A stretch of DNA of 64,000 nt from Acanthochlamys bracteata (Eukaryota; Streptophyta; Magnoliopsida; Pandanales; Velloziaceae). A program made the position numbers and the translations under genes. The stretch spans positions 6,448,001 to 6,512,000 of the forward strand of contig CM034130.1 in NCBI GenBank assembly GCA_019914995.1. Direction: 5' to 3'. The notes under the pieces were generated by a model that saw only the letters and a list, made by a program, of their open reading frames with translations, was not told the origin of the DNA and made no database searches. Below are positions 1,232 to 62,246 of the stretch, piece after piece (the stretch's first letter is position 1; each line of letters begins with the position of its first letter).

Positions 1232-3323
1232 ATTCCTTCAACACAATACAAATACATATATATAAACTCATAATAATACTAAATAAAAAAAGTTCTAAAT
1301 AAAAAATTATCTAAATCTAAGATAATATATATATAAAATAATTACATTTAAATGTATTGACTCACATCCACACACTCCGTCAAGTTGGTCCAAAGATGTC
1401 ATCGATGACCAACTTATTTAGTGAGTCATAAAAAATTTTACTTAAGACTTTTTCTATGAATATGCTTTCTAACTGTGTTTCTAGACTAACAAATAGTAAC
1501 TCAATTCGCTTTTCCTCCACTTTTTCTATAATAAAACGCCGATCCACTTCGGTATGTTTGGTATGATCATTTTGTACTAAATTATGAGCAATATTATTGT
1601 GGATTATTATTGCAGAAAGTTTCATAAAATCTTGAGGAGGAAAATCAAACTCTATCAATAACATTCGTAACCATAAAAGTTCATATGTATTATTAGTATT
1701 ACTCTATTGGTAATTATATCTGCTCAAGAATTGATTAAATCTTCCAAACAATACTTTTAGAGATTATTTTAGCCTATATAAAGTCTTCTTAAGCTTGTAA
1801 ACATAATTAGTTCTTCACGATACACTATATTCAGGTGGAAGCTATATGTCAGTTTTTTTCTATTTCAACATGAAAAAATATATTCTTTACATCAAGCTAC
1901 TGTAAATGTCAATCAAGATTGTCTACTAGACATAGTATTACCCTTATATTATTGGTTTTAACAATAAGTGCAAAAGTCTCGTGATAATTCGCTCAATAGG
2001 TGTATAAGTATTTCTTGGTATTAAGCTTTTTTTATACGTTTCGATCGTTCCATCTACTTTGTGTTTGATGGTGTACACATACTATAGTTGACTGCTTTTT
2101 TTATCCTAGTAATGATATTATCCTTAAGTAAAATTCTTTTGATGAGCTTTCATCTTTTCATTTATAGCCTTAGTCCATTTAGGAATGGATAAGACTTCTC
2201 TAGTATTAGAAGAAATAGCCATATCTACTACTTGATTAATAGAATCCACAAATGATTGAGACAAAATTTGCAAGATAACACTTGATTAATAATAGAATAT
2301 ATGGAGGCTTTTCTTTTTAGTGAATATCTCTAAAAAAAATTTCACAATTTTTTTATGTGACAACTGATAACTCATATTAATAATATTAAATTTATCCATA
2401 ATATTATTTTGAGTCTCAGTACTTAATTCAGAAATATCTTCAAAAGTTTAAATGGATATTGTAAAATGTGAGAGAGTGGTTTATTCAACTTCAGCTCTTT
2501 CTACCTCTTTCGTTTCTTTTGGTTCAAATTCAATAGTTGCTATCTAGTCGAGAGTTGAGACATGACTCATATATTGCCTCTGACTACCATTAATATGTAT
2601 GCTAAGTTCAACATAAAGTCAATTAAGATCTCTATATCTTCTATCTTCCTATTAAGATCCGAATGTGATGCAGGTTTTACAAAATGTATTTCTGACCATA
2701 GAAATAACACAAACATAATTACAAAGATATAATGTTTCGGAGGATGATAGTAGCAATAATCTTTTCGGAGTGGATCATAATAAAAAAACACGCACGTCAA
2801 AACACATGGATTTAATTTATTTATTTGAATATTTTGCAAATGTACTAATCTAAGAGATCCAAATATCCGACGGAGAAGTGAGAAGACTAAAAATAGTAAC
2901 AAATATATATATATATATATATTTTAAAAGGGATATATCAATTACTCCCAAGCACTCCTTTCCTATATTTATGATCGGGGTGACCTTCAAATCCAATCTC
3001 CACCATTGGATATGAAAAATTATGAATTAAAAACATATCCATAAAATTTCAGCTCAATCGGACTACGAATTCACGCCATCTAGTCACTTGATCAAGATGA
3101 CAGAAATAATACAATATATATTTTTTTAAATTTTTTTACTTTTTGTCATCTTGATCAAGTGACAGGATGGCCGTGAATTCGTAGTCCGATTGAGCTGAAA
3201 TTTTATGAATATGTTTCTAACTCATAGTTCTTCATATCCAACGGTTGAGATTAGATTTGGAGATCACCACGACCATAAACCAAAAAAGGAGTGCCCCTAA
3301 AAAAAAAATACTACTATCTCTCT

Positions 3324-3364
<41 letters not shown>

Positions 3365-9371: not shown

Positions 9372-10670
9372 ATGGTTAGTAGCAGGAGAACCATGATAGC
9401 TCTCTGCATGGCTTTCATGGCCATGCTCTTCAGCACCACGACTGCTACAACTCCTCCTGCTTACTTCTACCATTCTCCTCCACCACCTAAGACGGTGCAC
9501 GTTAACCCGCCACCCATTTACCACTCTCCTCCATCGACACCTCCCTCGCCGGGACTCCCTTATTTCCCTCCACCAACTCACTCAAAACCACCACAACCAT
9601 CTCCCCCTTATCATCATATACCTTCTCCGCCGTACCACACCAAGCCTCCGGTAGCAAAGCCACCACATGTGTCTCCACCATATCACCACAAACCGCCGCA
9701 TGTTTCTCCGCCTTACCACCACAAGCCGCCGGTAGCGAAGCCACCGCACGTGTCACCGCCCTACCACCATAAGCCATCTCCGCCACACCATACTAAACCA
9801 CCGGTAGCTAAACCACCACACGTGTCTCCGCCAGTGCACTATGCACCACCAGTTTATCATTCTCCTCCTCCGACACCAGTTAGTCATGGAACTCCACCGC
9901 CGGTGCACTACACACCGGCACCAGTTTACCACTCTCCTCCGCCGGCCCCTGTTAGTCATGGAACTCCACCGCCGGTGCACTACACACCAGCACCAGTTTA
10001 CCACTCTCCTCCTCCGGCCCCAGTTAGTCATGGCACTCCTCCGCCAGTACACTACACACCGCCAGTGTATCCTCCTCCGACACCAGTTAGCCATGGCACT
10101 CCTCCGCCAGTGCACTACACACCGCCAGTGTATCATTCTCCTCCGACACCAGTTAGTCATGGCACTCCTCCGCCAGTACACTACACACCGCCAGTGTATC
10201 CTCCTCCGACACCAGTTAGCCATGGTACTCCTCCGCCGGTACACTACACACCGCCAGTGTATCATTCTCCTCCGACACCAGTTAGCCATGGTACTCCTCC
10301 GCCGGTACACTACACCCCACCAGTGTATCACTCTCCCCCGCCAACACCAGTAACCCATGTGTCTCCACCGCCGCACTACTCTCCAGTACCAGTTCACCAC
10401 TCTCCTCCGCCGACACCAGCAAGGCACGGAACTCCGCCGCCGGTGCATTATACTCCACCAGTGTACCACTCTCCGCCGACACCAGTTAGCCATGGAACTC
10501 CTCCACCAGTGCACTATACCCCATCACCAGTGTACCACTCTCCTCCAACACCAGTGAGCCATCACACTCCGCCGCCAACACCAGTGAGACACCCAAGCCC
10601 ACCGACGGCGGTCTACCATTCTCCACCACCGCCAACTCACCACACCGTTCCTCCACCACCGTACCACTGA
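9372..10670 (+). CDS. Extensin-like repetitive proline-rich cell wall protein
   Basis: This encodes a 432-residue secreted structural protein of the hydroxyproline-rich glycoprotein (extensin/PRP) superfamily, expected to be hydroxylated, glycosylated and cross-linked into the cell wall. The start is the ATG at 9372; an in-frame GTG at 9351 is upstream but is not a likely plant start. Residues 1-25 or so form a signal peptide (basic MVSSRR, hydrophobic core, small residues before TTPPAYFYHS). The mature chain is nearly all P, H, V, Y, S, T and K. The N-terminal third repeats KPPVAKPPHVSPPYHH-type units. The rest repeats units of 21-24 residues beginning HGTPPPVHYT, with nine exact copies of that decamer. 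SPPPP motifs occur only near the two ends, so it is not a classical SP4 extensin; VYHSPP and PPVHY tyrosines are potential cross-link sites. There is no intron. Large antisense and alternate-frame open reading frames over the repeat are shadows. Confidence 0.93.
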   Translation: MVSSRRTMIALCMAFMAMLFSTTTATTPPAYFYHSPPPPKTVHVNPPPIYHSPPSTPPSPGLPYFPPPTHSKPPQPSPPYHHIPSPPYHTKPPVAKPPHVSPPYHHKPPHVSPPYHHKPPVAKPPHVSPPYHHKPSPPHHTKPPVAKPPHVSPPVHYAPPVYHSPPPTPVSHGTPPPVHYTPAPVYHSPPPAPVSHGTPPPVHYTPAPVYHSPPPAPVSHGTPPPVHYTPPVYPPPTPVSHGTPPPVHYTPPVYHSPPTPVSHGTPPPVHYTPPVYPPPTPVSHGTPPPVHYTPPVYHSPPTPVSHGTPPPVHYTPPVYHSPPPTPVTHVSPPPHYSPVPVHHSPPPTPARHGTPPPVHYTPPVYHSPPTPVSHGTPPPVHYTPSPVYHSPPTPVSHHTPPPTPVRHPSPPTAVYHSPPPPTHHTVPPPPYH

Positions 10671-44204: not shown

Positions 44205-44412
44205 GGGGCGGTTTGGATAGACTTATTTTAACTTATAAATTAAAAATAGTAAAATAAGAGTGTTTGGATGAACAACTTATAAATTACTTTTTCAACTTAT
44301 AAGTCACAAAAATAAAAATTATGCTGAATAACTTTTCCAAAAAAGTCACACGCGACTTTTTTGTCTGTTTGGAGAAAAGACACTGTTGACCCTGTTAACT
44401 TAACATATTTAT

Positions 44413-44417
<5 letters not shown>
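44205..44417. mobile_element. Left half of a MITE split by nested insertions
   Basis: This begins GGGGCGGTTTGGATAGACTT, and its partner end at 62246, read inward, begins GGGGCCGTTTGGCTAAACTT (17 of 20 identical). GAA precedes the left end and GAA follows the right end, a possible 3-bp target duplication. Each half is 213 bp long and stops at a TA-rich array. The simplest reading is one about 430-bp MITE whose central TA-rich part received all the elements now lying at 44.4-62.0 kb. Confidence 0.65.

Positions 44418-44475
<58 letters not shown>
44418..44475. repeat. (TA)n microsatellite
   Basis: This is a 58-bp almost pure TA run bounding the left end of foldback MITE copy B. Confidence 0.95.
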
Positions 44476-44477
<2 letters not shown>

Positions 44478-44847
44478 ATAAAATATAGGCACATATAGGC
44501 CTTAAAGGCACATGTGTACACATGTCGGCCAAAAGTGGCCGGCGAGCTCTCCAAATCCAATCTTCACCGTTGGATATGAAGAACCATGAGTTGAAACATG
44601 TTGATAAAATTTCAGCTCAATCGGAATACGAACCTACCTTCATCGGAACTCTTGATCAAAATGACATAAACTTTTAAATTTGACAAAAGATATATATTTT
44701 GTTTTTGTGTCACTTTGATCAAGAGTTTCGATGGAGGTCGGTTCATATTCCGATTGAGCTGAAATTTTATCAACATGTTCTCAACTCATGGTTCTTCATA
44801 TCCAACGGTGGAGATTGAATTTGGAGAGCTCGCCGGCTACTTTTGAC

Positions 44848-44851
<4 letters not shown>
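44476..44851. mobile_element. Palindromic foldback MITE, copy B
   Basis: Two long inverted arms (about 44530-44670 and 44710-44851) share 'GCCGGCGAGCTCTCCAAAT', 'CCGTTGGATATGAAGAACC', 'TTTCAGCTCAATCGGAATAC' and 'CTTGATCAA'. The arm core is the same family as copy A at 2930-3325. The left end carries an extra terminal segment starting GGATAAAATATAGGCACA, with no counterpart at the right, so the right end looks truncated or the left extended. TA repeats bound both sides. There is no coding capacity. Confidence 0.85.

Positions 44852-44879
<28 letters not shown>
44852..44879. repeat. (TA)n microsatellite
   Basis: This is a pure TA run between foldback MITE copy B and the Mutator-like element that follows. 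Confidence 0.95.
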
Positions 44880-44880
44880 G

Positions 44881-46796
44881 GGATGGGATATGTGCACATC
44901 CCATCCCTTTATACACATGAATTACTATAGGCACAGGTATTGAATGAACGGTTGTGATGATTTGTTTTTTGTTTTCAACGGTGCAATGAATCAGCGAGAA
45001 GATAAGCTACGCACACAGCCGTAGGGTTTCATTTGTGCACCGCGCTCATTTCTTTTCTTCTCTCTACAGCGGCGCGATTTTGCCGTTCCTTGGCTCGATT
45101 TCTTTTCCCCTCTCTGAATCGAGTTCTCCTTGGCTCGATTTTGCTATTCCGGTCTTTGTTCGGCTTTTGATCAAGGGTCCGACTCGATTCCGTCCGACTC
45201 GATTCCGTCTCCGGCTTCGAAATGAGCAAAATTGAGTTCTCGGCGCTCGATTACGGCTCGATTTCGTCTCTCGGTGTCCATTTCGGCTGTCGATCGGGAT
45301 CTGGGCTCAGTTTCGTTGCCGGTTTCGACTCCGACCGACTTTGGCTCCGGCTTCGAAACGAGCAAATCGAGTTCTCCTCGCTCGGTTACGGCTCGATGTC
45401 GGATCTCGGTGACCATGTCGGCTTGTGATCGATATCTGGGCTCGAATTGATCTCCGGCTTCGTCTCCGACTCCAGTGACACATGTTTTACTGTTGGCACA
45501 TGACTTGGGTCAACAGCTGTGATTCTTGTAGCATTATCGCTTCAACAGTGCAGATGCAGCCGCAGAAACGAGCAAAATCGAGTTCATCGCTCGGTTACGG
45601 CTCGAATCGGCTTCCGGTGTCCATTTTCGGCTTGGCTTTCTCTCCGGCTTCGACTTTTTATTTTTTTATTTTTATTTCAATTTTTTTATGATTTGTTTTA
45701 ATTTCCGATGATTTTTTTTTATTTTACCGATTTAATTTTCGTTGATTTGATTTATACGGTGTATTGGATTTGATTTATACGGTGTATTGGTTTTGTTTTA
45801 TACGGTGTATTAATTTTGATTTATACGGTGTATTGGTTTTGATTTATACGGTGTATTAATTTTGATTTATACGGTGTATTGGATTTGATTTATAATGCGG
45901 TGGATAGTTGGCTCGGAAATATGTTGAATGAATGCATGAGTTGCTAAGATTGGGACGGGATGTTGGTTTGCTGTATCACAGCCGTTGTGAAAATTTTCGA
46001 TACGAGACAATGATGGAGTTGCTTATAATTCCGCACTACCTATTTGGAGCACACAGCAAGGCAGTTAGGATGGCCATGCATGGCAACCTCTGCAGCTGTG
46101 CCTCTATAACAGGCAGTGCGGAGAGGGAGACAACCATGGATTGTTTCCAAACAGTCCTGGACAAAGGTTGTACCTTGTTTCTCAGTGCCTGACGTAAAAG
46201 CATGACTCTGAGCCTCATTCCTCCTTCCTCTTCATTGCTGCTTTGTTGTTGATGAATGTATGCTGGAAATCTCGATCATGTGATTGTCGCCGTTGTGAAA
46301 TACTGGAAATGTAATTTTAATTCTTCCTCTGTTGTAATCTTCTCAATGTAATTCTCTCGTCAGAATAGCTTGTAATTTCTCTGCTGTGATTCTTTTATAA
46401 GAATGCTTATGTAATTCGATTCAAAGCTGTGAATGAAATTTTTAAGAACTTGCAGAAATAATATTACATTATTATCAGCAAACTTTAAAAAAAAAACTTC
46501 AAAAAATAAAGTCAAACAAAATGCTATTATTAATAAAATTAATTGAAATATATTAAAAATATTCAAACAAAATTAAATCAAACGTCACATGCTCGCTGCA
46601 TGCATTTTAATCACACAGCAGCCTGCGTTTAATCACAACGCCTCCTGCGTTTAATCACAACGCCATGCAAAATAGCGCCATTCCTGCAAGCGATAAACAC
46701 AACTCTAACAATAAATGCTACTTACACGCTTAATTACAACATTTAATCACTCGTTATTAAATAATAGCTACAGTATTCACCTACTTTTTTTCCCGC
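44881..46796 (+). repeat. Left terminal inverted repeat of the MULE
   Basis: This is about 1.9 kb and pairs with 49977-51792. Within 45060-45640 the motif CTCG(A/G)TTACGGCTCGA occurs three times and the shorter GGCTCGAT more often; such clustered subterminal motifs are candidate transposase-binding sites. The part at 45920-46260 (GAGGATG-type, then GGCAGTTAGGATGGCCATG and AACAGGCAGTGCGGAGAGG) also has relatives at 60.4-61.0 kb. Confidence 0.85.
45751..45888 (+). repeat. 23-bp subterminal tandem repeats, six units
   Basis: Units start at 45751, 45774, 45797, 45820, 45843 and 45866, each beginning TTTATACGGTGTATT, with a degenerate seventh at 45889. The complementary array is in the right arm at about 50840-50985, and a diverged version (CAATACACCATAAAATCAAA) lies at about 61270-61335 in the second MULE. 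Regular spacing suggests a protein-binding array at the element ends, but that is inferred. Confidence 0.88.
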
Positions 46797-47214
46797 TGTT
46801 TCTTTCTCCGTTCTGTTCGAGCGCGTATTTCATTCTTTACTGTTTTATTTCGTTCTTCTTTTCTTGTTTCTAACATGTTTAGATAAATCTCAAATACAAA
46901 TGCATCTGTGTGATTTTTATTCTCGTCTACAAACAAGCACAGCTACTGGGCTCTTCTTTTTTCTACATGAATCCAGACATTTCAAATTGTGAAGGTGTTT
47001 TACCAGACGAAAATTTTGATAATGTGAATTTTTTTTGTTGTAATATTCTATTACTGAATTTAAAACAAAGCATAACAAATACAAAATCTAATATCTCTGT
47101 TGCTGTTTTTAGTTTTTTTTATATCAAAAGTGGAATAGAATAGTGAAAGAATGAAGAACGAAATTTTTTTAAAAAAAATACATCTCTGTTATGTTCTAGC
47201 TTTTACATTGTTAA

Positions 47215-49651
47215 CGCAATTTTATTTTTATAGCTTTTGAAACAAATGCAACCGAGTGTTCTGCTGCATCAACTCAGAATTTAAATGCACAGAAGGAGAA
47301 GTCACCATGCTTAGATATGATTTTTCCAACACTTGAAGCAGCAAAAGAACTTTATATATATTACGGAAGAGCAACCGGATTTAGTGCTGTTATTCGAAGT
47401 ACTGAGAAGAAAAAGGGTTTCGATGAAGTCAATGCTTGTCTAATGACTTGTCAGCGTTTTGGAAATTATAGAGAGCATGCCAAGAAACAAACGTATGAGG
47501 ATTCCAACCGAGCGTCTACTAAGAAGAGAAGTAGGTTTACAGTAAAGTGTGGATGTCCTGCAAGAATGAAAGTGACAAAACAACCAACCGGATTGTGGAA
47601 GGTGACTCAGTATATTGATAAGCATAACCACAATTTTATCAGTCCCGCTAAGAGGATGCGTATGCCTGTCTGTAAGCATATGCCTGCTGCAGCTAAGTTA
47701 TTAATTGACTCATTTCGTGATGAGAGTATACCTGTGAATAAAGTTGTAGATATTCTCGATGGATCACAGATTGGTTTTGATGATAGAGATTGTTGGAATC
47801 ATTTAGGACCGTCGAAAAATTACAAAAAACCTGTCCAAAGGGATGCAACCGTAGCACTCAATTTTTTCAAAAAGAAAAGTATAGAAGATCCAATTTTTTT
47901 TTATGCAATACAGATGGATAGTGAAGCAAGGGCAATAAACTTTTTTTGGGTTGATGGTCGATCTCGCCTGCAGTTTCAATATTTTGGTGATGTGCTATTT
48001 TTCGACACTACGTATCGTACGAATGTGTATGAAATACCGTTTGCCCCATTTATTGGAGTTAATCATCATATGCAGTCAATTCAGTTTGGTTGTGCATTAC
48101 TTTTGGATGAGACGGAAGAATCTTTTTTTTGGCTGTTTGAGACATGGCTTGCAGCTATGGGAGGGCGTGCTCCATCTTCTATTATTACAGATCAAGACCG
48201 AGCTATGACTGCAGCAGTTGAGAAGGTATTTCCTACAACACGACATCGATTTTGTTTATGGCATGTGATGAAAAAATTTCCAGAAAAACTTCCACATATT
48301 TATTCAAAAAATCACAATTCAAAAAAGATATTCGAATGTGTATTCGAGAAACCTATACTCCTTCTGTCTTTGAATCGGGATGGAATGAACTGATATTTAA
48401 GTACAATTTGGTCGAGAACGAATGACTTCAGGGAATATATGAAATTCGAAAGAAATGGGCTCCAGTTTATCACTTGGATACTTTTTATGCCGGTATGAAT
48501 ACGACAGGACGCTCAGAAGGTATGAATTCTGTTTACAACAAATTTTTTCATCCAACTACAACTCTTCGCGAGTTTGTAGTAAAGAACGATAAGTGTTTAG
48601 CTAAAATTGTTGAAAAAGAAAAAAAAAAGGATTATATTAGCGAACACTTTGATCGTATTGTTGATGGTCATGCCTTTCTGTTGAAGAATGCAGCAAATAT
48701 ATATACTAGAAATGTGTACGACAAATTCAAAAAAGAATTTGAGAAAGCTCTAGCAGAGTATATCTTATTTGACGATGAAAAGAATAGTGATGGCTTCACG
48801 ACGTACATATATAAATCTCGGTTGCTTGGTGACAATCGTACGTGGAAGGTTAAATTCAACCATGCCACGAAGGAAGGTTGTTGTGAATGTAAATTGTTTG
48901 AGTTTGTAGGAATTCTCTGTGGACATCTTTTAAAAGTTTTTCAGTCCCGTGATATGGAAATACCTGATAACTTCATTCTTAAGAGGTGGATGAAACGAGC
49001 TAACAAATATAGAGCTCAGTACGATGGTGAAGCAGTACGAGGGCTTGCAAATTCTGACCTACTGAGAACTACCCAACTTTTGAAGATTTCTAGCCAGTTG
49101 TCCTATGATGCAGGTGAAACAGACGAGACTTTTCAGTTGATATTGCAAACATTACAAAAATTGTCATTGCAAATCAATGAAGTAAAGAAGACTAATGATA
49201 GCTCAAAATTCAGTTCATACACCGGTAATGAGAGCTCTCAAGTTGATGTCAATGCGTCTCAAGTTCTACTATTGAATCCAAATATTTCACAGACCAAGGG
49301 AAGGAAAAAAGAAATAAAAGCTTCCGTCAGTAGTAGTAGAATAAAAGGTGGTTTGGAAAAATCTGTTGCAAGAGCCAAAGCTAAAATATATAGGAGATGT
49401 GCTTGTTGTAACAAGATTGGTGTTAAACACGACAAACGAAATTGTCCTGAAAATCCAAATCGAAAGAAGAAGATAAGTAAGTGTAATTGTTACTTAATTT
49501 TCTTGTCCTAATTTACTATGTTTTCAAATTAAAATTAGTGTTAACTTTTGTTAAAATTTTTACTTGGCAGTTATTGATGAAGATACCGACGAAGACAAAC
49601 ACAGTGATGAAAATGAAAGTATACATAACGACAGTGATGAAGAATTATGAA
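47215..49651 (+). pseudogene. FAR1-like Mutator transposase, interrupted
   Basis: DDE-type MULE transposase related to FAR1/FHY3. The first open stretch, with its first ATG at 47317, has an N-terminal FAR1 zinc-binding domain (GFSAVIRSTEKKKGF, CPARMKVTKQ, DKHNHNF), then the transposase core: FFDTTY (first Asp), HHMQSIQFGCALLLDETEES, IITDQDRAM (second Asp), and HRFCLWHV with the C-x2-H motif of Mutator transposases. The second stretch, 48474-49511, has TGRSEGMN (likely catalytic Glu), a SWIM zinc finger (CECKLFEFVGILCGH) and a CCHC-like knuckle (CACCNKIGVKHDKRNC). Between them there is a frameshift near 48310-48320 and a TGA at 48423-48425 where relatives have Trp. A final small exon is likely at 49570-49650 after an intron with donor GTAAGTG at 49477-49483; it codes a short acidic tail (DEDTDEDKHSDENES). 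An upstream exon with an ATG at 46967 is possible, but its phase does not fit cleanly. Confidence 0.88.
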
Positions 49652-49976
49652 TAGGTGATGATTTTGGGATTGATTTATGAAGCTGGATGACTGTAGTTTG
49701 TAAATTCTGTATAGCTATCTAAGTGTAAATTATGGTTTTGTTCAACTGTAAAAGTTGTATAGGTTTTGTTCTAATATATAACTTACTTTTATGTTTGTAT
49801 TTTTTTTATTATAACATCATTTTCTTATTGCTTATTACTTATACCATTACTTGTTTTTAAAATAAAATTTAAAAAAAATAGAGAGACATAGGGAGAGAAA
49901 CAGAGCCGTAGAGAAACAGAGCTCGGGCGAGAAACAGAACGCTGGAGAGAAATAGAGCCACTATGGCTTGGCTGTT

Positions 49977-51790
49977 CGCGGGAAAAAAAGTAGGTGAATA
50001 CTGTAGCTATTATTTAATAACGAGTGATTAAATATTGTAATTAAGCGTGTAAGTAGCATTTATTGTTAGAGTTGTGTTTATCGCGTAGGGAATGGCGCTG
50101 CATGGCGTTGTGATTAAACGCAGGATGCTGTGTGATTAAAATGCATGCAGCGAGCATGTGACGTTTGATTTAATAATATATTTCAATTAATTTTATTAAT
50201 AATAGCATTTTGTTTGACTTTATTTTTTGAAGTTTTTTTTTAAAGTTTACTGATAATAATGTAATATTATTTCTGCAAGTTCTTAAAAATTTCATTCACA
50301 GCTTTGAATCGAATTACATAAGCATTCTTATAAAAGAATCACAGCAGAGAAATTACAAGCTATTCTGACGAGAGAATTACATTGAGAAGATTACAACAGA
50401 GGAAGAATTAAAATTATATTTCCAGTATTTCAAAACGGCGACGATCACATGATCGAGATTTCCAGCATACATTCATCAACAACAAAGCAGCAATGAAGAG
50501 GAAGGAGGAATGAGGCTCAGAGTCATGCTTTTACGCGAGACCGAAAACAAGGTACAACCTTTGTCGGGACTGTTTGGAAACAATCTATGGTTGTCTCCCT
50601 CTCCGCACTGCCTGTTATAGAGGCACAGCTGCAGCGGTTGCCATGCATGGCCATCCTAACTGCCTTACTGTGTGCTCCAAATAGGTAGTGCGGAATTATA
50701 AGCAACTGCATCATTGCCTCGTATCGAAAATTTTCACAACGGCTGTGATACAGCAAACCAACATCCCGTCCCAATCTTGGCAACCCATGCATTCATTCAA
50801 CATATTTCCGAGCCAACTATCCACCGCATTATAAATCAAATCCAATACACCGTATAAATCAAAATTAATATACCGTATAAATTAAAACTAATACACCGTA
50901 TAAATCAAAATTAATACACCGTATAAATCAAAATCAGTACACCGTATAAATCAAATCTAATACACCGTATAAATCAAATCAACGAAAATTAAATCGGTAA
51001 AATAAAAAAAAATCATCGGAAATTAAAACAAATCATAAAAAATTGAAATAAAAAATAAAAAAATAAAAAGTCGAAGCCGGAGAGAAAGCCAAGCCGAAAA
51101 TGGACACCGAAAGCCGATTCGAGCCGTAACCGAGCGATGAACTCGATTTTGCTCGTTTAATCTGCGATCAAATCACAGCCGTTGACCCAAGTCATGTGCC
51201 AACAGTAAAACATGTGTCACTGGAGCCGGAGACGAAGCCGGAGATCAATTCGAGCCCAGATATCGATCACAAGCTGACATGGTCACCGGGATCCGACATC
51301 GAGCCGTAACCGAGCGAGGAGAACTCGATTTGCTCGTTTCGAAGCCGGAGCCAAAGTCGGCCGGAGTCGAAACCGGCAACGAAACTGAGCCCAGATCTCA
51401 ATCGACGGTAAAAATGGACAAGAAAATCGAGCCGTAATCGAGCGTCGAGAACTCAATTTTGCTCATTTCGAAGCCGAAGACGAAATCGAGCCAGCCCTTG
51501 ATCAAAAGCCTAACAAAGACCGGAATGGCAAAATCGAGCCAAGGAGAACTCGATTCAGAAAGGGGAAAAGAAATCGAGCCAAGGAACGGCAAAATCGCGC
51601 CGCTGCAGAGAGAAGAAAAGAAATGAGCGCGGTGCACAAATGAAACCCTACGGCTATACGCGTAGCTTATCTTCTCGCTGATTCATCTGCACCGTTGAAA
51701 GCAAAAAATAAATCATCACAACCGTTCATTCAATACCTGTGCCTACAGTAATTCATGTGTATAAAGAGATGGGATTTGCACATATCCCAT

Positions 51791-51792
<2 letters not shown>
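49977..51792 (-). repeat. Right terminal inverted repeat of the MULE
   Basis: This is the inverted copy of 44881-46796, slightly shorter because of indels. Both arms retain the tandem repeat block and the CT-rich leader-like segment, so either end could act as a promoter-bearing terminus. Confidence 0.85.

Positions 51793-51860
<68 letters not shown>
51793..51860. repeat. (TA)n microsatellite
   Basis: This is a 68-bp TA run separating the MULE from the next inverted-repeat element. Confidence 0.95.
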
Positions 51861-51862
<2 letters not shown>

Positions 51863-52959
51863 ATCTTCATGCCATAATGTATCTTTGCGCATTATCGCAT
51901 TACATCAATTTCCGGCCGTCAGATGATGATTTGATGGCTCCTATGGCGCTCCCGTAAGAGCGCTTACGGGAGCACTGTTAAGGGCTTTGCGTGCCCAGCT
52001 ATAGTGCTCCCGTAATTTTTTTTTTTTTCTCTTCGTTCTCTTCTTTCTCTCCTAAGCTCGATCCACGATCGCCTCTCCCGAGCCAGCGATCATCGTTCTT
52101 CGGAGAAATTGTTTACCGAAATGTTGCCTCCTGCCTTTCCTTTCTTTAATTTTTCCTTCAATGGTTCCTTTCTCGCAGCCGATCGAAAATCCAAATGCGG
52201 CCAAAATCTTCACTCGCCGGCCGATGATAGTCAAAGTGGTACCAAATTTTTTATTTTTTCTTCTCCTCCTTTTCTTCCTAATTCCCTCATGAACTTATTA
52301 ATTACAACCGTGAGCGTAATGGAATCCGATCGTTGCGGGTATGAAGCATCACGAGCTCAGTGGTCTTGGGCCACGCCTAAATCAATACCGATGACTGGTA
52401 TTGTGATTTCTTTTAAGATTTTAGCAATATTTATTTTTCTTTATGCTTTTTGAATAAAATTTTTTTCTTGGTTTGATTGTCCAGTGTCGAGCTGGACCAA
52501 GGAAGAGTGAGTTCAACTCAATTGCAGGTATTTTTCTTTCAATTGTAGGTAATATGATTTCAGATTTTTATTTCAATTTTCTTCTTTCCTCTGGATTTAG
52601 GTTTTGATTCATACTATTTCTTTTCATGTTTATGATCAAGGACTCGGTTGTTTCATGTTGACTCATGTTATTTAGGTGAGTAGCTGAATTTCAACAATAT
52701 TTTTAATCGTTTTTTTGATCTACTTCTCTTTTGTTTCCCTGCTTTGCAGGATGCTCAGAGTTGAATTCTTCAGATTGTTGAACGCTGTAATAAATTCTTC
52801 AAATTATTGATTTCTTCAAATTTGTAATATATGCAGCTGCCACCGTAGATGTATAAATTCTGTCTTAAATTTCTTTTTCATTTGGATCGGTATATATGTA
52901 TACACTCAAGCATCCCCTATGGTAAGTTGATTGCACATTAAGTTTGATTAGCTCCATAG

Positions 52960-53820
52960 CATTGTTTGACAGAGCATGCCACGACTTGTACGCACCCAAT
53001 GTCTTAGGAATGTTAGATCAGCGAGCCACGTCTTCCTCTCCTTACAGATCCCAGGATGTCCACCAAGTAAATAATTCGAATATAATCTCTCTTAGTAGTT
53101 GAATTAGTTTGATCCAATGTGCGGAAGATTGTGATTTGTGAAGTGTTTGTTTGTTGATTGAGATAAGAGATTCATTATGGTGGTGTTCTTAAGCAGATAG
53201 AACGGAAGAACATAAATAAAAAAATCTTGTTGAGCTTATAATTGATTGTTGATTAGCTAAATTTGTGTTGTGTTTTTAGCATAGTTAATTATCCTGAGAG
53301 CATGTTGATTGATATAGTTTTAAACAGTAGCAAGAGTTTCATCTTCTTTACCTCTACATTTTGGTGCAGAGAGGAAGCTTGAAGATCTCCCGGCTATGGC
53401 TGTCGCAGGAATTTTTATAGCTGCTGATCTTGGGTATCTAACACTTTGTGCAAGTCACATCCTGCTACAACACTTATTGATGCTACTAAGGTTGTTGTTA
53501 ACACAGACGGTGATACCAAAGCTACAGCTGCCAAGTATTAGAATAAGTTTTAGTGATTTTGTTAATGGCTGGCATGTAAGGGCAATAACTTTAAGTTTTC
53601 TTTCAGTTTTTGGTGTTGGTAGTTCATGCTATTATGTTTTGTTTTGTTATGAATGGATGAATGAGAACAATAATATTATTGTTGGTATAACTTGGTGGTT
53701 CAGTACATATGAATTGTTTAGGTTTTTCGCGTATTATATTTTCAAAATTTTGATCAAAACGTATGATTGGCAAGTTTTCTTGACATTGACTGCTTTAAAA
53801 ATGAGTTAAAATGTTACAGC
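52960..53820 (+). other. Interior of the inverted-repeat element, possible captured gene fragment
   Basis: The interior contains a stretch that looks coding in places: near 53370-53440 one frame reads RKLEDLPAMAVAG and IAADLGYLTLC, with a plausible acceptor (TTTTGGTGCAG) before it and a donor-like GTAAAT near 53068 after an IPGCPP-like stretch. A 137-residue frame runs 53396-53809, but its second half is low-complexity. I do not recognise the family. Capture of a host exon by a MULE (Pack-MULE) is possible; chance is not excluded. Confidence 0.3.
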
Positions 53821-53829
53821 TTCAAGTAA

Positions 53830-55060
53830 TAATGATTGGTTTGCGCCAATATCTTCGATGTTGAAAAACAACAAGATCACCAAGAAGACGAAATTCGTGG
53901 AAACAGTTCTGTTGTCTAAAGGGCTAATCTTAAGTAGAGCATTTTGTACTTTTCCATAGCCAGATTTATTTCAGTTACACTCGAAGAACAATAACTAGTT
54001 CTAGATTTTCTATTTCCAAACAAATTTTGGTTTTACATATTGTTGTCAGATTTTCTACATACACAGCGTCATCATACATCAGTTGTTATGGCTCTAGGAA
54101 AAAATCTAAAGACAAAATGATATTTATCAAAATCAGAATGATAATTTTTGGTTAAGCACAAAGGCATACTCGTATTTCTATATCAGTTGCCATGCAACTC
54201 AAAAATATTACTCTGTAACTAATGAATGTCCGGAAGGATATGAATACATAAATAGCATTCTTTAGCTAAACTTTCCACAAGCATAGTTGACTTCATAAAG
54301 ATTTATAAATGAATTCTAATGAATGATGAACACCAAAGTTAAACACCATAAATTTAATGCATAGGCAAACTGTACAATAATTTTGTGTTCCATGATCTTC
54401 ACTAGCCAGTCAGAATATGTCGTTTGCTTGCATGGCTTTCTTCTACATGAAGTAGTATACATCATTGCAGGGGCACATCCAGATCTGGTCTTTGGTCTAG
54501 CTCTTTCGCCATGAAACTATCTAGAAAGGTATCATGGTATGCTACTGCTAGTTTATCTTTCATGCTTCTGTCAAAAATACATGTTCAACATTAGTTTCTA
54601 AACTATCCTCAACATCAACAATCTCTCCAGTTTAATACAGGAGAAAGTATCATTTCTGTACATAATTAAACTACTAGCTCTTTTTATTTCGCAATGTCAA
54701 GCAAGTATGCGTATATCATTCAAAATATTAAAATTTTCATTTTCAAGTGGACTCTCCTCATCTTTGTATCCATAACAAGATAGATAGATACATTAATATC
54801 TGCGTTCTTGGAATCTACAACAACAATAACCTCCAATCTACTAAACTAAGTAAGTATAGAGAAAAAGCTTTCAATCAAACTACAATGCTATTGAAATCAA
54901 CCATCCGTGTATCGCAAACAACCAGAAAACTTCCATCTCTCAGAACAAACAACCAGAATATCAACTTAAATCCAAACTTGAAAAAATTTAAGAAATTCAA
55001 GATTAAAAGAAGGATTAGAAAAGAAAAACAAAACAGAAACTTCAGTTACATTAAATGTTG
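53830..55060. other. Remaining interior of the inverted-repeat element
   Basis: No gene motif is recognised. The sequence is AT-rich, without tandem structure. Confidence 0.4.
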
Positions 55061-55955
55061 GAGAACTCTAAGCATCCTGCAAAAAAAGAAGAGGAGTAGA
55101 CTGAAACAACGATTAAAAACATCGTTGAAATTCAACTACTCACTTGAATAACATGAAACAACCGAGTCCTTGATCATAGACATGAAAAGAAATAGTATGA
55201 ATCAAAACCTAAAAACAGAGGAAAGAAGAAAATTAAAATTAAAATATGAAATCATATTACCTACAATTGAAAGAAAAATACCTGCAATTGAGTTGAACTC
55301 ACTCTTCCTTGGTCCAGCTCGACACTGGACAATCAAACCAAGAAAAAAAATTTATTCCAAAAGCATAAAGAAAAATAAATATTGCTAAAATCTTGAAAGA
55401 AATCACAATACAATTCATCGGTATTGATTTAGGCGTGGCCCAAGACCACTGAGCTCGTGATGCTTCATACGCGCAACGATCGGATTCCATCACGCTCACG
55501 GTTGCAATTAATAAGTTCATGAGGGAATTATGAAGAGAAGGAGGAGAAGGAAAAATAAAAAATTTGGGTACCGCTTTGACTATCATCGGCCGGCGAGTGA
55601 AGATTTTGGCCGCTTTCGGATTTTCGATCGGCTGCGAGAAAAGAACCATTGAAGGAAAAATTAAAGAAAGGAAAGGAAGAAGGCAACATTCCGGTAAACA
55701 ATTTCTCCGAAGAACGACGATCGCCGGCTCGGGAGAGGCGATCTTGAATCGAGCTTAGGAGAGAAAGAAGAGAACGAAGAGAAAAAAATAATAATTACGG
55801 GAGCACTGTAGCTGGGCACGCAAAATTACACGCGTGCCCTTAACAATGCTCCCGTAAGCGCTCTTACGGGAGCGCCATAAGAGCCATCAGATCATCATCT
55901 GACAGCTGGAAATTGATGTGCGCGCGCAGTACATTGTGTGCGCAGATTGCCTACC

Positions 55956-55972
55956 ATATATATATATATATA
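55956..55972. repeat. (TA)n microsatellite
   Basis: This short TA run separates two elements. Confidence 0.9.
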
Positions 55973-57029
55973 GATGGATTGGAGTATATACACAGCCATT
56001 ACTGTGCATACACATCCATACACTCAATCTCAGCCGTCTGATCGCTTGATCAGACGGCTGAAAGAGAAAGAAAACACGGTGCGAGCAAGGATTTATCCAA
56101 TTTTCACACGTTCCCTTTCATTCTTCTTCCTCGTCTCGCCCGAGCACGACTCTCTCTCGCCTTCCTCTCGATCGTTCCTGCCGGTGCTCTCCCGCCGGCA
56201 GGCTTCATTTTTCTTCGTTTCTTCTTCTTCGTCTCTTCTTCGGTGTGCTCTCCGGCGTTTTTTTCTCTCTTCGGGCGGAACGAGCGTGCGTGTAGATCGG
56301 TTTGGGTTTCGTCGTCGATCCCGATTAAGAGAATCTGACGACATGAATGGGAAATTCCCTCTGTCTCCCTCCTATGTTGCTTCTCTTAGCTTCAATTTTA
56401 CCCGCTCCGGTGATTTTTACGGTCCGGCTGGCTAAGGCTGCTCCGAGTCGCCGCAGTAAGGTAATTTTTTTAATTCTTGATTTCCTTCTCTCAATTGATG
56501 TTCTCCTTCGAACCCGTAATTTTGTTGAGTTTTTCTGAATTTTCTCTCCCGGAATTGGCGAAATGGCCAGGCTCACCTAGGATCTTTGTCGAAGACGATG
56601 GTCTTTGTAAGGTTGAATTTGCGATAATTTTATTAGTTTGCTTCACATTGTGGTAAGCTCTTGGTTGTTTTTGTTCAGTTTTTATTTTTTTTGGTGAGTC
56701 GATTTTGTTGATTTTTTCGTTGGTGATGATGTTCGGCGTGTTTCTTTTTTCCCTTTACATTCTGAGGGAAGAGTTCATGCAGTGTCGAAGATTTGCTCAA
56801 AGCATCCGAGAAGAAGGTTCAAAGCTGCTCACGGCTCACCATAATTTCTGTTATATTTTTTGAATTTCTTCTCAGCTGCAGCAGCTTCCTAAGCTCATGT
56901 TGTGTCATTCCTGTCAAGATTTCATTCTAAAATTTGCAAAGAAATGAAAAAATTCGTTCTTGTCAAGATTTCTGAATGTAGCATTTGTTTAGCTATTGTT
57001 TTGTGTACTACTGTCAAACCATAGTGAAT

Positions 57030-57365
57030 GAAGTTTTTATTGGATAAAAGAATGAATTCTGTTGTTTTGAATGAAATATTGAGCTAAAGCTGTGAATGGT
57101 TTCTTGTGGATGCTATCACTAGTGAATTGTTTGTGAATGAATGAATCAGAAGTGCTGTGAAAACAAATGATGTGCAGCTGTTGTCTGTTTAGTGAATGAA
57201 CGAATAAATGAATGAGGTGCTGTGAAATCAAAGTGAATGAAGTGATGTTAACTAGCAGTGAATGCTGGCAATGAATGAAAGAATGAGGTGCTGTTAAATG
57301 CACAGTCAATGAAGTGCTGTTAACTAGCAGTGAATGCTGGCAATGAATGAATGAATGAATGAACT
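57030..57365 (+). repeat. GAATGAATGA-rich tandem and local repeats
   Basis: GTGAATGAA, GAATGAATGA and GCTGTTAA(C/A) motifs recur, including a duplicated AACTAGCAGTGAATGCTGG (near 57250 and 57322). They look like slippage-generated local repeats within the element. Confidence 0.7.
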
Positions 57366-57824
57366 CATCTGGACAGTAGCATTTGTTCAAAACAGTGAAA
57401 TCAGACAATATATGTTCAAAACAGATAAATCAAATAGTATATATGAAATCAAAACAATAGAGGCTCCCAGCTTTCCTGTTCCCTTTTTTTTCCTAGAACA
57501 TAGAGCAGATTTATACAGAAAGCTATATTTTACTTGACAAAACTTGCACAGCAACAGAGAGCTGTATTGCTGAAAAGAACTTGTAGAGCTATATTACAGA
57601 GAGCTATACACGGAGCTTACTTAAGGAAAAACTTGCATCATCAATTCTCCTTCAAAGCCATGCATATCTCCAAACATTTTCGAACAAATATGATTTTTTT
57701 TTTAATTTCATTAAACAAAAACAGATACATAGCATCAGCACTTCATTAATTTTACTCCAAATGAATAGCTAACTCTTCGTCTACACTATCTCCATCTTCA
57801 CTTGTGTCTTTATCATCATCTCTA

Positions 57825-59712
57825 TCAAGAACTATCAAGTAGGAAAATGAAGACACATGTCAATTTCAATTTTCTTTCAAAAAAATAAAATATATTAGGA
57901 ATCAAAACTAAGAAAATTATAATACTTACTTGTCTTCTTTTTTCTATTTGGATTTCAGGACAATTTCGTTTGTCATGTTGAACACCATACTTGTTACAAT
58001 AAGCACAATTTCTTCCCATTTTCGCTTTGGCTCTTGAAGTAACTCTCTCCAAACCTCCTTTAATTCTAGTACTGCCCTTATAAACATTTCATTCCTTTTT
58101 TTTTCCCTTGGTTTGTGAGATATTAGAATTTAAAAGTAAAACTTGAGAGGCATCAATTGGTGCTAATAAGCTGTCATTGGTACCTGAAGTGTCAACAGGA
58201 ATCTTATCCCTATCATCAACCTTTCTTACTCTTTTGAGCCGTTGTGACAGTTCTTATGATGTTCGCAACATGATTTGATATCCCTCGTCTGTTTCGACCG
58301 CTTCATAAATCAATTGATTGAAAACCATTTGAAGTTGTGTAGTTCTCAATAGCTCAGACTTCTCATTGCTCTTTACTTGTCCACCGTTGTAGTTGGCTCT
58401 ATATTTATTAGCCCCTTTCATCCATCTTTTAAGGACAAATTGATCTGGTATCTCTATATCACGACTTTGAAAAACCTTTATAAGGTGCCCACAAGAAATC
58501 CCCATAAACTCAAAAAGTTTACATTCACAGTTACCTTCCTTGGATGGACAAAATTTTACCTTCCACTTACGCCGATCACCTTCTACTCGTGTAGCCATCA
58601 CTATCTTTTTCATCGTCGTAAAGGGCATATTCTGTTTCAGCTTTTTCAAATTCTGTCTTGAATTTCTCGTACACATTCCTTGTATATACTTTTTCTGCAT
58701 ATTTCAAAATAAGTGAATTACCATTGATAATACGAGATGAGTGTTCACTGATATAATCCTTTTTTTTCTTTTTCAACCATTCTGCTCAAAAACTTGTCGT
58801 TCTTCAATACAAATTCTCGGAGAGTTGTTGTTGGTTGAAAAAAATTTTTATATGTAGCATTCATACGTTCAGAGCGTCCAGTAGTGTTAGCGCCTACATA
58901 AAATGTATTCAAGTGATAGACAGGTACTCATTTTTGTCGAATCTCGTATATTCCTTGAAGCCATTCATTTTTCTGCAACTCATATGCACATATCAATTCC
59001 TCCCACCTCTTTTCAAAGGTGTTAGGAATATAAGTATCCCGAATGCACGACTTCATATCCTTCTTAAATTTTGACTTCTTGAAATAAACATGTGAAAGCT
59101 TTTCGGCAAATTTTTTCATAACATGCTATAAACAAAATCTATGTCGTGTATTTGGGAATACCTTCGCAACAGCTGCTGTCATAGCTCTCTCTTAATCTGT
59201 TATGATTGAAGATGGGGCACGCCCGCCCATAACTGCAAGCCATGTTTCAAAAATCCATTGAAATGATTCTTCTGTCTCATCCAAAAGTAATGCACAACCA
59301 AACTGGATTGACTGCATATGATGGTTAACTCCAGTGAATGGCGCAAATGGCATGTCATACACATTCTTTTTATAGGTAGTGTCAAAAAATATCACGTCAC
59401 CAAAATATTCATATTGAATATGTGACCGACCATCTACCCAGAAAAAATTGATTGCCCTTGCTTCATTATCCATTTGTATTGCATAAAAAAATTTCGATCT
59501 TCTATACTTTTTCTTTTAAAGAAATCAAGCACTGCAGTAGCATCACCTCCAATAGGTTTTTTGTACTCCTTCGAACGGCACAAATGATTCCAGCAATCCC
59601 TGTCATCAAATCATTTTGTGGTCCATCAAATATATTTGCAACTTTGTTGACGGGTAAGCCTTCATCCCGAAATGAATCAATCAAGCACTTAGCTGCAGGA
59701 GATGAATCATAA
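57825..59712 (-). pseudogene. FAR1-like Mutator transposase remnant, N-terminally truncated
   Basis: Reading down the minus strand are LIDSFRDEGLPVNKVANIF (59680-59620), DNEARAINFFWVDGRS then FFDTTYKKNVYDMPFAPFTG (59470-59330), HHMQSIQFGCALLLDETEES (59320-59265), GGRAPSSIITD (59220-59192), EKLSHVYFKKSKFKKD (59100-59055), TTGRSERMN (58890-58860), EGNCECKLFEF then GISCGH (58540-58490), a SWIM-type finger, and CAYCNKYGVQHDKRNC (58005-57955). It is about 70-80% similar by eye to the transposase at 47.2-49.6 kb. The FAR1 N-terminal zinc domain is absent, and frameshifts or stops separate the pieces (for example TAA just after IITD near 59192), so it is inactive. Confidence 0.88.
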
Positions 59713-59759
59713 TCTAAAAATTATTAAAAAAATAATTAATTTTAGTAAGCCGAGATTAT

Positions 59760-60300
59760 GTTTTAAAGAGGTTTTATAATTTTTTTTTATGCTTAATAGA
59801 TGCTGTTGGGAGGAGGAGAGATGTGATTTTGATTTTTGATTTTATTTTATTTTTTTCTCTGATTGTTATGAATTTTTTTGTTATCTGTTTAATGGGTGCT
59901 GTTCGGAAGAAGGGAGTTGAACAGAGTAGCTCTATGTTGGGAGGATGAGAGATATGGTTTGAGTTTTTATTTTATTTTTTTCTCTTGATTGTTATGATTT
60001 TTTTTTTTATCTGTTTAACGGGTGACGTTCGGAAGAAGAGAGTTGAACGGAGTAGCGGAGCTCTTTGGAGCAGGCGAGAGCAGTAGGCGTGAGAAAAAAT
60101 AAAAAGATTACATGCACTAAATATAATCGCTTCTGTTCCACACTAATCACAACTTAAAAATCGTTAAAAAGAATTAATTTTATTAATTAAACTATGAAGA
60201 TTACAAGAGCATGCATTGCATTACACAGTAAATTTTTTTACATGCAGCTTTCCCTCGCACGTAGACGAGGAGTTGATCACAGCATAAAGAAAGGAGTACA
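59760..60300. other. Low-complexity spacer inside the second MULE
   Basis: A roughly 130-bp unit is duplicated: GGTGCTGTTCGGAAGAAGG..AGTTGAAC..GAGTAGC near 59890-59935 and again near 60020-60055, with the preceding TTTTATTTTATTTTTTTCTC repeated. No gene is seen. Confidence 0.55.
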
Positions 60301-60404
60301 TTTGTAGTGTTACAATCAAGCTGATAAAAATGTGTTACAATTTCTAGCGTACATGAGTTACATTTCCAGCAACGCTTCCAGCAACACCAAAAAAGAAATA
60401 GAGG

Positions 60405-61045
60405 GAGGAAGAGAGGCTCAGAGTTACATTTCTAGCGTATATGAGCTATATTTCCAACATTCTTTCGATAGCAATATCAATATGCACTGTTATTTCCCTC
60501 TTTGCATTGCCTTCTCTAACTGTAGCTGCAGTGGTTGTCGACTAGCTTTGCCAGTGGCCCTCCTTACTGCCATGCTGCCCTACAATAACAAGCATTCATC
60601 AAATTGGTAATTGAAAATATCATATATTGATAATCACAGTAATCCAAATACATTTATATTGTTTGCACTTGTTACATTTCCACTAGAGATACTAGTTACA
60701 ATTTCATCCCCATATTATATTGATTACATTGGTATATTAGAGTACACTGAAATGCCTAACACTAGGATGCCTTATTTCGAAGCTGTAGTGAACTCCTGTT
60801 CCAACATGTCGTCCACAACATTGAACATAAGCTGAACATAGCAAATACAACAGAAAGTACTTAATATACTTTCCAACAACTACAACAACAGAGAGAGAGT
60901 CGAGGGAGGCTCAGATTCTCCTTTCTCACTCATCCACTGCTCTCATCCTCTATGCGCTGCCTTCTTTATATCACAGTTGCAGTGGTTGCCGGCTAACTTA
61001 TTAGCCATTGGCCATCCTACTGCCTTACTGGTTACTTTAAGAGAC
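60405..61045 (-). repeat. Duplicated MULE arm segment
   Basis: Two related copies (about 60410-60580 and 60905-61045) share GAGGCTCAGA, CATTGCCTTCT/GCGCTGCCTTCT, GCAGTGGTTG(T/C)CG(A/G)CTA and CTTACTGCC or CTGCCTTACTGG. Both are related to the MULE arm sequences at about 46060-46200 and 50530-50690. The duplication within one arm supports rearrangement of this element. Confidence 0.65.
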
Positions 61046-61993
61046 AATGCAAAGAGAGAAAGAACGAACACAAAACAATGTAACAAATCCTACATCATGC
61101 AATTTTCACCATCATTGCCTCTTCATCTCGAACATGATTTAAGCACGAACAAAAGCACCGTAGTCCAACCTGATTTAATTCCATTGTTTCCCAGTTCTTG
61201 CATGAACAGACATGCACAGAGCACCATAAGCCTTCGCAATTCGGCAACCAAATAAAAAAAAACGATTCAAAGCAATACACCATAAAATTAAAGTAATACA
61301 CCATAAAATCAAAACAATATACCATAAATCAAAGAGCAATCAACAACATTAAAAAATATTCAAGAAAAATAAAAAGTAAATCATCCAAATTCAAACAGAA
61401 AATTCGAATTAAAATAAAACATCGTCGGACTGAGAATCAAATTCCAACTGAGACAGCTGAGAAATCAACTTCTGATCTGAGGTGGGAGGGAGAAAGATAA
61501 TCTCGAGCTCAAAGCCGATGTAGCTGCCGACGAGACAAAGCTTCTCTCTGTTCGGAGAGAACGAGATGAAGATGAAAACCCGACAAGTTGTAGGGGAGAT
61601 TAGTGCAGTTTAAGAGACGAAGATCAGAGGAAATGAGAGGTGAAGGCCAGACGAGAGGAGCCGCAGCGGGATTGGAGACGAAGACGGGGCGAGATCGACA
61701 GAGCGATCAAGCGAAAGGAGCCGAAAGCGAAGACGGCCGAAAGGAGAAGATCGGAGATGAAGACCGGACGAGAGAAGCCTCAGCTTGATCCGAGAGCGAG
61801 ATCTGGGAGAGATGCGCTAGTGAACAAATCAGAACCGCGCGAGAGAGAAAGAAAAAATGACAACTTCAATTGAGAGGAGAAGTTTACAACGGCTGTGATT
61901 TGGATCCGAAAACATCACAAATAGTTCATTCTTTGGAGTGCCTCTGATTGCACTCAGAGTGTGTCTGGGAGAGGGAGTGCCTATATCCCTCCT

Positions 61994-62033
61994 CTATACA
62001 TATATACATATACATATATATATCACATTATTG
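61994..62033. repeat. Imperfect TA/TATACA array
   Basis: An interrupted TA run (TATACATATATACATATACATATATATA) bounds the right end of the element nest. Confidence 0.85.
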
Positions 62034-62246
62034 TAAATTATATTTTAGTTTTTGTATAATTTTTTTTAATTTTTCAGCTCTTTTTTGCCAAACACTTTAT
62101 TTAACTTTTTTTCAAAAAAAGTAAAATTTATCCAAGCACATACCTCTCTTTTTTAAAAAAGTTTTCAGCTACTTTTATTAGAAAAAAGTCAAAAAAATAA
62201 CTTTTGTAATAAAAATTAAAACTTTTAAGTTTAGCCAAACGGCCCC
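62034..62246. mobile_element. Right half of the MITE split by nested insertions
   Basis: This ends AAGTTTAGCCAAACGGCCCC, the complement of the left terminus at 44205. The internal sequence is AT-rich with CTTTTTT/AAAAAAG-type stretches typical of such MITEs. It is 213 bp, the same length as the left half. Confidence 0.65.

Follow-up and report, generated by a model that had tools for sequence, protein, structure and literature searches.

How four transposons with different interiors come to lie end to end, separated solely by TA-rich microsatellite, is the question raised by positions 44,417-62,032 of a 64,000-nucleotide stretch of the Acanthochlamys bracteata genome (contig CM034130.1, here C5, positions 6,448,001 to 6,512,000; genome total 195.5 Mb), referred to below as the window. 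In order, the array consists of a truncated foldback element (foldback B), a 6.9-kb FAR1-type Mutator-like element (MULE1), a 4.1-kb inverted-repeat element (element 3) and a 6-kb, probably chimeric FAR1-type Mutator-like element (element 4). An earlier interpretation made from the letters of the window alone (hereafter the sequence-only reading) had located these elements and their TA runs correctly, and had taken nearly every long TA run to be an element boundary; all six perfect TA runs of at least 14 bp in the window do border an element, one of them with a 7-bp gap. The answer developed here is that FAR1-type Mutator-like elements (MULEs) and foldbacks very probably entered the TA microsatellite of an older PIF/Harbinger miniature inverted-repeat transposable element (MITE), by ordinary cut-and-paste transposition that prefers alternating TA.

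On either side of the array lies half of the same MITE, and GAA stands on both outer sides of this copy, as expected of one insertion split in two. Three-base-pair duplications, mostly TNA, were recognised by eye in 10 of 15 empty copies (15 of the 27 such copies being read in this way). A long relative (C10:6054424-6061678) has both MITE halves and contains a DDE_Tnp_4 match at C10:6058195, and for three further DDE_Tnp_4 matches, on C9, C8 and C4, the distance to a same-strand right half is 2.9-3.2 kb. By these sequence characters the host MITE is a member of PIF/Harbinger.

Other copies of the MITE present the same microsatellite as a landing pad with or without inserts. Among the best 40 of 133 candidates from a search with the left half (30 with flanks, L009-L038, and 10 added), the two halves are joined by microsatellite alone in 21 and separated by foldback- or MULE-like inserts in 16, the other three being long Harbinger relatives (L028, L114, L118) that were excluded from the pads. 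The best 40 of 173 candidates from the right-half search gave 28 further regions: ten are pads (six empty, four occupied), one (L148) is the other half of the pad at L014, and 17 were left out as other or longer subfamilies or as not assignable. With pads classed as empty or occupied by eye, the total is 47, of which 27 are empty and 20 hold foldback- or MULE-like inserts, the window copy included; both searches favour uninterrupted halves and are silent on the rate of insertion elsewhere in the MITE. Elements of these two kinds have entered the MITE microsatellite repeatedly. Every one of the 27 empty pads carries a TA run no shorter than 10 bp (longest run: median 19, range 10-141 bp), and the left-end TA run at occupied pads has a median of 16 bp (18 of 20 pads, L144 and L146 being known from the right side alone). 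Because empty copies already hold TA runs, the run can be regarded as a target that predates insertion, a statement that the empty copies make directly for the MITE family and that would extend to the window locus. One pad counted as empty, L120 (C3:6366780-6367780), has an internal partial tandem duplication of MITE and microsatellite.

Taking an end to be associated with TA when no more than 3 bp separate it from an alternating TA run that is 8 bp or longer, we find that 67 of the 78 ends tested adjoin TA. Foldbacks contribute 34 of 42 ends, together with 18 of 20 from ten further exact-end foldback pairs; the MULE1 family contributes 11 of 12 (six pairs, one of them in the window), and two members of the element 4 right-end family contribute all four. 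By the same measure, the frequency among control positions is 0.14% of 90,220 in the window (array and foldback copy A excepted) and 0.21% of 63,640 in the terminal 900 bp on each side of 37 loci, so that the genome-wide copies support the proposal of the sequence-only reading that a MULE lineage and its foldback derivatives target TA repeats. The exact 18-mer foldback end GGGATAGGATATAGGCAC occurs at 83 sites in the genome, its reversed control at none, and 45 of the 54 distinct outer flanks of exact ends adjoin TA as defined above (identical strings were merged, and 20 of the 83 sites lie outside this set); at L175 one end has a non-TA flank. The counts leave out MULE pairs L053/L052 and L056/L050, one end of which was not found, and single MULE1-family ends without a partner locus; eight foldback ends lack a recognisable G-run (in L069, L077, L078, L079, L080 and L083), and their pairs fall outside the 42 ends.

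Among the foldbacks examined, two have both ends outside TA runs, and each is flanked by an exact 9-bp duplication: TTTCATAAT at L080, which was assessed separately through its exact ends, and TATTAAATA at L088. The duplication of 9 bp is thus seen directly in two foldbacks, and the preference for TA as an association. The sequence-only reading had named, as the pattern that would speak against it, a majority of copies lying outside TA repeats with such duplications; among the foldbacks examined, these two are of that kind. Its further suggestion that the elements carry or expand the TA runs at their ends finds no support here: the same two insertions have no TA run at their ends, and runs are already in place in all 27 empty MITE copies.

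A motif of 11 bases, GATRTRKGCAC, was derived from the MULE1 family (and is circular for MULE1 itself), and its significance was judged against shuffles. Foldback B and element 4 at its right end both reach a significant 10-11 of the 11 positions; some foldback-A-type copies are significant as well, and over 16 ends at pads the mean score is 9.6, with p <0.05 in 13. The loose end pattern described in the sequence-only reading can be retained for these ends, but foldback copy A (p = 0.07) falls short of significance, as do element 3, its three relatives (p = 0.06-0.12 for the relatives) and element 4 at its left end. Since significance is confined to some ends, a common transposase is likely for the foldback B, MULE1 and element 4 right-end types, and a FAR1-type transposase that recognises ends of the GG..GATRTRKGCAC type probably mobilises the foldbacks in trans.

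These observations suggest a course of events in which a PIF/Harbinger MITE, a TA-rich microsatellite in its interior, would have inserted at the locus first, and FAR1-type MULEs and their foldback derivatives would have followed, one after another, into that microsatellite. Insertion would proceed by cut-and-paste, the target being cut with a 9-bp stagger and alternating TA being strongly preferred, and TA would be left on both sides of each element, allowing elements to stack without interrupting one another. Because every insertion would leave TA on both sides, the site would stay a target and arrays could grow without nesting; with 9 bp of TA duplicated each time, a colonised pad would still be attractive and could become an array. 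With less assurance, we lean towards the broader view that the landing site of one transposon superfamily is spread about the genome by a second, the microsatellite carried by the MITE being repeatedly colonised by TA-targeting FAR1-type MULEs and foldbacks and its pads growing into arrays.

Several points weigh against this account and temper its details. Of 22 pairs with intact GGG ends, 14 have flanks that are identical over 9 bp, two over 8 bp and two over 10 bp, but identity over 7 bp (14 of 22) and 11 bp (12 of 22) is as frequent as over 9, so that inside TA runs only an odd length can be read, and not 9 itself. Where both ends have GGG, the phase of alternating TA, which is unaffected by slippage in whole TA units, agrees with an odd length in 15 of 17 pairs (p = 0.0023), one of the two exceptions (L047/L048) having a flank inside an inverted duplication; this restriction was chosen after the data were seen, and among all pairs with TA of at least 5 bp on both sides the fit falls to 18 of 27 (p = 0.12). 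We prefer the restricted set because a terminal G-to-A change would flip the apparent phase. The end motif lacks a significant fit at three of the 16 pad ends, at both ends of element 3 (p = 0.99 and 0.09) and at the left end of element 4 (p = 0.10). At three of 18 occupied pads (L035, L111, L126) the perfect left-end TA run is shorter than 8 bp, and the pad counts rest on best-scoring copies, so that the occupied fraction does not describe the MITE family as a whole. Finally, standing copies alone are visible, and these would also be left if insertion were broad across AT-rich sequence and survival occurred mainly in harmless TA repeats. Such survivorship is compatible with insertion into TA by preference, and the two foldbacks found outside TA repeats agree with it, but as the explanation of the pattern we consider it unlikely: at the control frequency of 0.14-0.21% it would demand the loss of nearly all insertions elsewhere, and the host MITE itself persists at ordinary sites.

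How TA-targeting MULEs choose and retain their sites is disputed in print, pre-existing repeats being set against expansion after insertion and against recombination of circles. Under the expansion model, proposed for maize TAFT elements (as reported in PMC5907723), elements would enter short or ordinary AT sites and the runs would lengthen by slippage or by stuttering during gap repair. Run lengths on the two sides of elements do differ widely, some sites have short runs of 8-11 bp (L087, for example), those in the window reach 67 bp, and for MuTAnT PMC4486113 gives an average of 15 TA repeats per side at occupied sites of wild ecotypes against nine at empty sites. We nevertheless judge this model improbable, as the TA runs are already present in the empty pads and the non-TA copies at L080 and L088 remain without TA; the similar run length at occupied pads is a weak point in the same direction, since it compares one side with a whole run. 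Slippage may have lengthened some runs later, alongside a pre-existing target. Still less probable is recombination of circular elements with TA as filler, even though it would account for uninterrupted stacking and for insertion in mixed TA/TG/CA microsatellites: the odd phase of the intact pairs and the exact 9-bp duplications at the two non-TA copies fit direct insertion, and TA filler would be expected to show no fixed phase, unless it were of constant odd length. An artefact, with elements joined through collapsed TA repeats, deserves mention as such repeats and long inverted repeats are difficult to assemble. It is very hard to credit, as an unplaced contig (C453) repeats the order of the elements across three inner junctions and supports contiguity whichever origin it has.

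This 17.1-kb contig (L089, L049, L090, L051) holds the same elements in the same order at ~80% identity to the window, the two outer MITE borders being absent from it. Its arms are ~71-73% alike in the main alignments, against 91.5% in one alignment of the ~1.9-kb arms of MULE1 in the window, and its divergence from the window is roughly even lengthwise, mismatches outnumbering indel events and transitions being in excess. Given the low arm identity and the even divergence, we hesitate to count C453 as an independent copy; it may come from the window locus, as an unpolished contig, or from an old duplicate. Its ends were tabulated but left out of the counted pairs (the distal-flank control does include L049 and L051 among its 37 loci), as was C535 (L101), apparently a similar poor copy of C11:4842973.

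The insertion of MULEs and foldbacks into TA repeats has clear precedents in the accounts of MuTAnT, SaTar, Micron and the pineapple Mutator-type MITEs. The sequence-only reading had thought a MULE-plus-derivatives system of this kind less familiar; MuTAnT and the SaTar/AgS-MULEs precede it. According to PMC5907723, SaTar elements and AgS- and ArS-MULEs of guayule and rice form end-to-end arrays of MULEs and derivatives in microsatellites, mostly TA. Such clusters include autonomous MULEs, copies that lie outside microsatellites have duplications of 9-10 bp in some families, and for 20 of 51 sites on one rice chromosome the other subspecies has an empty TA repeat; pre-existing targets had thus already been demonstrated. 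The A. bracteata array resembles SaTar in its uninterrupted stacking of unrelated MULE-type elements, its TA joins and its 9-bp duplications outside microsatellites. It differs in lying wholly inside the microsatellite of one PIF/Harbinger MITE, for which paralogous empty sites are available, and in having flanks that fit an odd-length duplication, whereas many SaTar flanks are described there as inconsistent with cut-and-paste. MuTAnT/AutoMuTAnT of Medicago truncatula is a MULE with a Jittery-like transposase and foldback derivatives in TA microsatellites, with 9-bp duplications at non-TA sites and TA repeats at empty sites (PMC4486113); a FAR1-type MULE, foldbacks in TA microsatellites, such duplications and such empty sites recur here. 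Membership in the MuTAnT family proper can be set aside, as the terminal search mask given there, GGGGTTTGCTAGAACA, is not matched by the ends found here (GGGATAGGATATAGGCAC and similar, compared by eye), and the parts of that account used here describe neither mixed arrays nor a landing site borne by a transposon. The Ac-mMITEs of pineapple are likewise Mutator-type MITEs stacked in TA repeats; according to PMC8449440, 46.1% of full-length copies lie in uninterrupted clusters, a minority have 9- or 10-bp duplications and no autonomous partner was found, whereas here FAR1-type MULEs share an end motif with foldbacks. Micron of rice and TAFT of maize, as described in these papers, are similar as MITE-like elements in TA repeats.

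What seems fresh is the Harbinger-borne landing pad, with an older element apparently spreading the landing site around the genome; no title reporting a Harbinger-borne microsatellite as a repeated MULE landing site was found in the literature searched, which does not cover most subscription journals. For rice and Medicago, TA repeats are reported at orthologous empty sites (PMC5907723, PMC4486113). A MITE family with dozens of matched empty and occupied copies of one microsatellite in a single genome is a ready natural experiment, which here favours a pre-existing target with ordinary duplication and suggests that the safe landing places of a transposon family can be shaped by a different family.

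The features of the locus are collected in the following table.

Features of the array, its host MITE and foldback copy A (positions in the window)
Feature	Position	Strand	Basis
Left half of host PIF/Harbinger MITE, start GGGGCGGTTTGG	44205..44404	+	40 copies scored; halves co-occur in many copies
Left remainder of MITE internal microsatellite	44405..44475	.	pure TA from 44417; microsatellite at same position in empty copies
Foldback B, right terminus lost	44476..44851	+	inverted arms I21, I24; comparison with complete copies
TA run separating foldback B and MULE1	44852..44879	.	sequence
MULE1, FAR1-type Mutator-like element	44880..51792	+	arms 44880-46796 and 49978-51792; relatives with TA-flanked ends
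MULE1 reading frame, FAR1 DNA-binding and MULE transposase domains	47215..48393	+	Pfam FAR1 1.6e-13, MULE 3.5e-32
MULE1 second transposase frame, SWIM finger; break from first frame	48426..49511	+	Pfam SWIM 1.9e-4
TA run separating MULE1 and element 3	51794..51860	.	sequence
Element 3, inverted-repeat element, arms ~0.9 kb	51861..55955	.	relatives on C19, C17, C8
TA run separating elements 3 and 4	55956..55972	.	sequence
Element 4, degenerate FAR1-type MULE	55973..61992	-	Pfam domains; end comparisons
Element 4 transposase fragments	58254..59515	-	MULE frame 59192-59515, Pfam 4.9e-19; SWIM frame 58254-58703
Right remainder of MITE microsatellite	61993..62032	.	TA with interruptions
Right half of host PIF/Harbinger MITE, end CCAAACGGCCCC	62033..62246	+	genome search; halves joined in other copies
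Foldback copy A	2930..3325	.	bounded by TA runs 2903-2922 (7-bp gap) and 3326-3358
Perfect TA runs of at least 14 bp	2903-2922, 3326-3358, 44417-44475, 44852-44879, 51794-51860, 55956-55972		window scan

Foldback B adjoins a TA run, as the sequence-only reading had it, but has lost its right terminus. A genome search with it gave 208 matches, the best 40 of 1,548 candidates being scored. Foldbacks stand end to end elsewhere too, five in L008 and three in L003, most with TA runs between them; among the loci examined, uninterrupted end-to-end arrays are represented by the window array and the foldback rows in L008 and L003.

MULE1 combines FAR1, MULE and SWIM domains with long inverted arms, and its target-site duplication is unreadable inside its own TA run. 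Arbitrary frames of its coding region (stops as X) gave no Pfam domains, and the open frames gave all three. Its transposase has 106 matches in the genome, the best 105 of 1,002 candidates being scored; some relatives have open frames of 768-831 codons with no stop in the match (for example C3:3028165, C3:4920914 and C17:3801808), and because of these the transposase family may have been active recently. In two MULE1 relatives, L044/L042 (C7:8657336-8664340) and L047/L048 (C11:1900775-1907841), the inverted repeat continues 1.1-1.5 kb beyond the element end and TA run; these extensions are 94-97% alike and represent an inverted duplication or an assembly artefact.

Element 3 gave no Pfam match in the three frames tested, and the ends of its relatives on C19, C17 and C8 likewise meet TA-rich sequence. 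Element 4, a second MULE segment in the sequence-only reading, carries degenerate fragments of a FAR1-type transposase, the SWIM match (9.3e-4, 19.1 bits) being slightly below the Pfam cut-off of 19.6; it does not look like a single second MULE, however, as an inverted repeat between its two ends was sought and none was detectable. Its left part resembles the insert at pad L014 (70-75%) and its right end the family L096-L100 (73-88%), and since the two ends match different families it is probably a chimera of two MULE ends. At some distance from the array, window positions 9666-10577 hold tandem repeats of 33, 66 and 129 bp, rich in proline codons by eye, perhaps part of an extensin-like gene.

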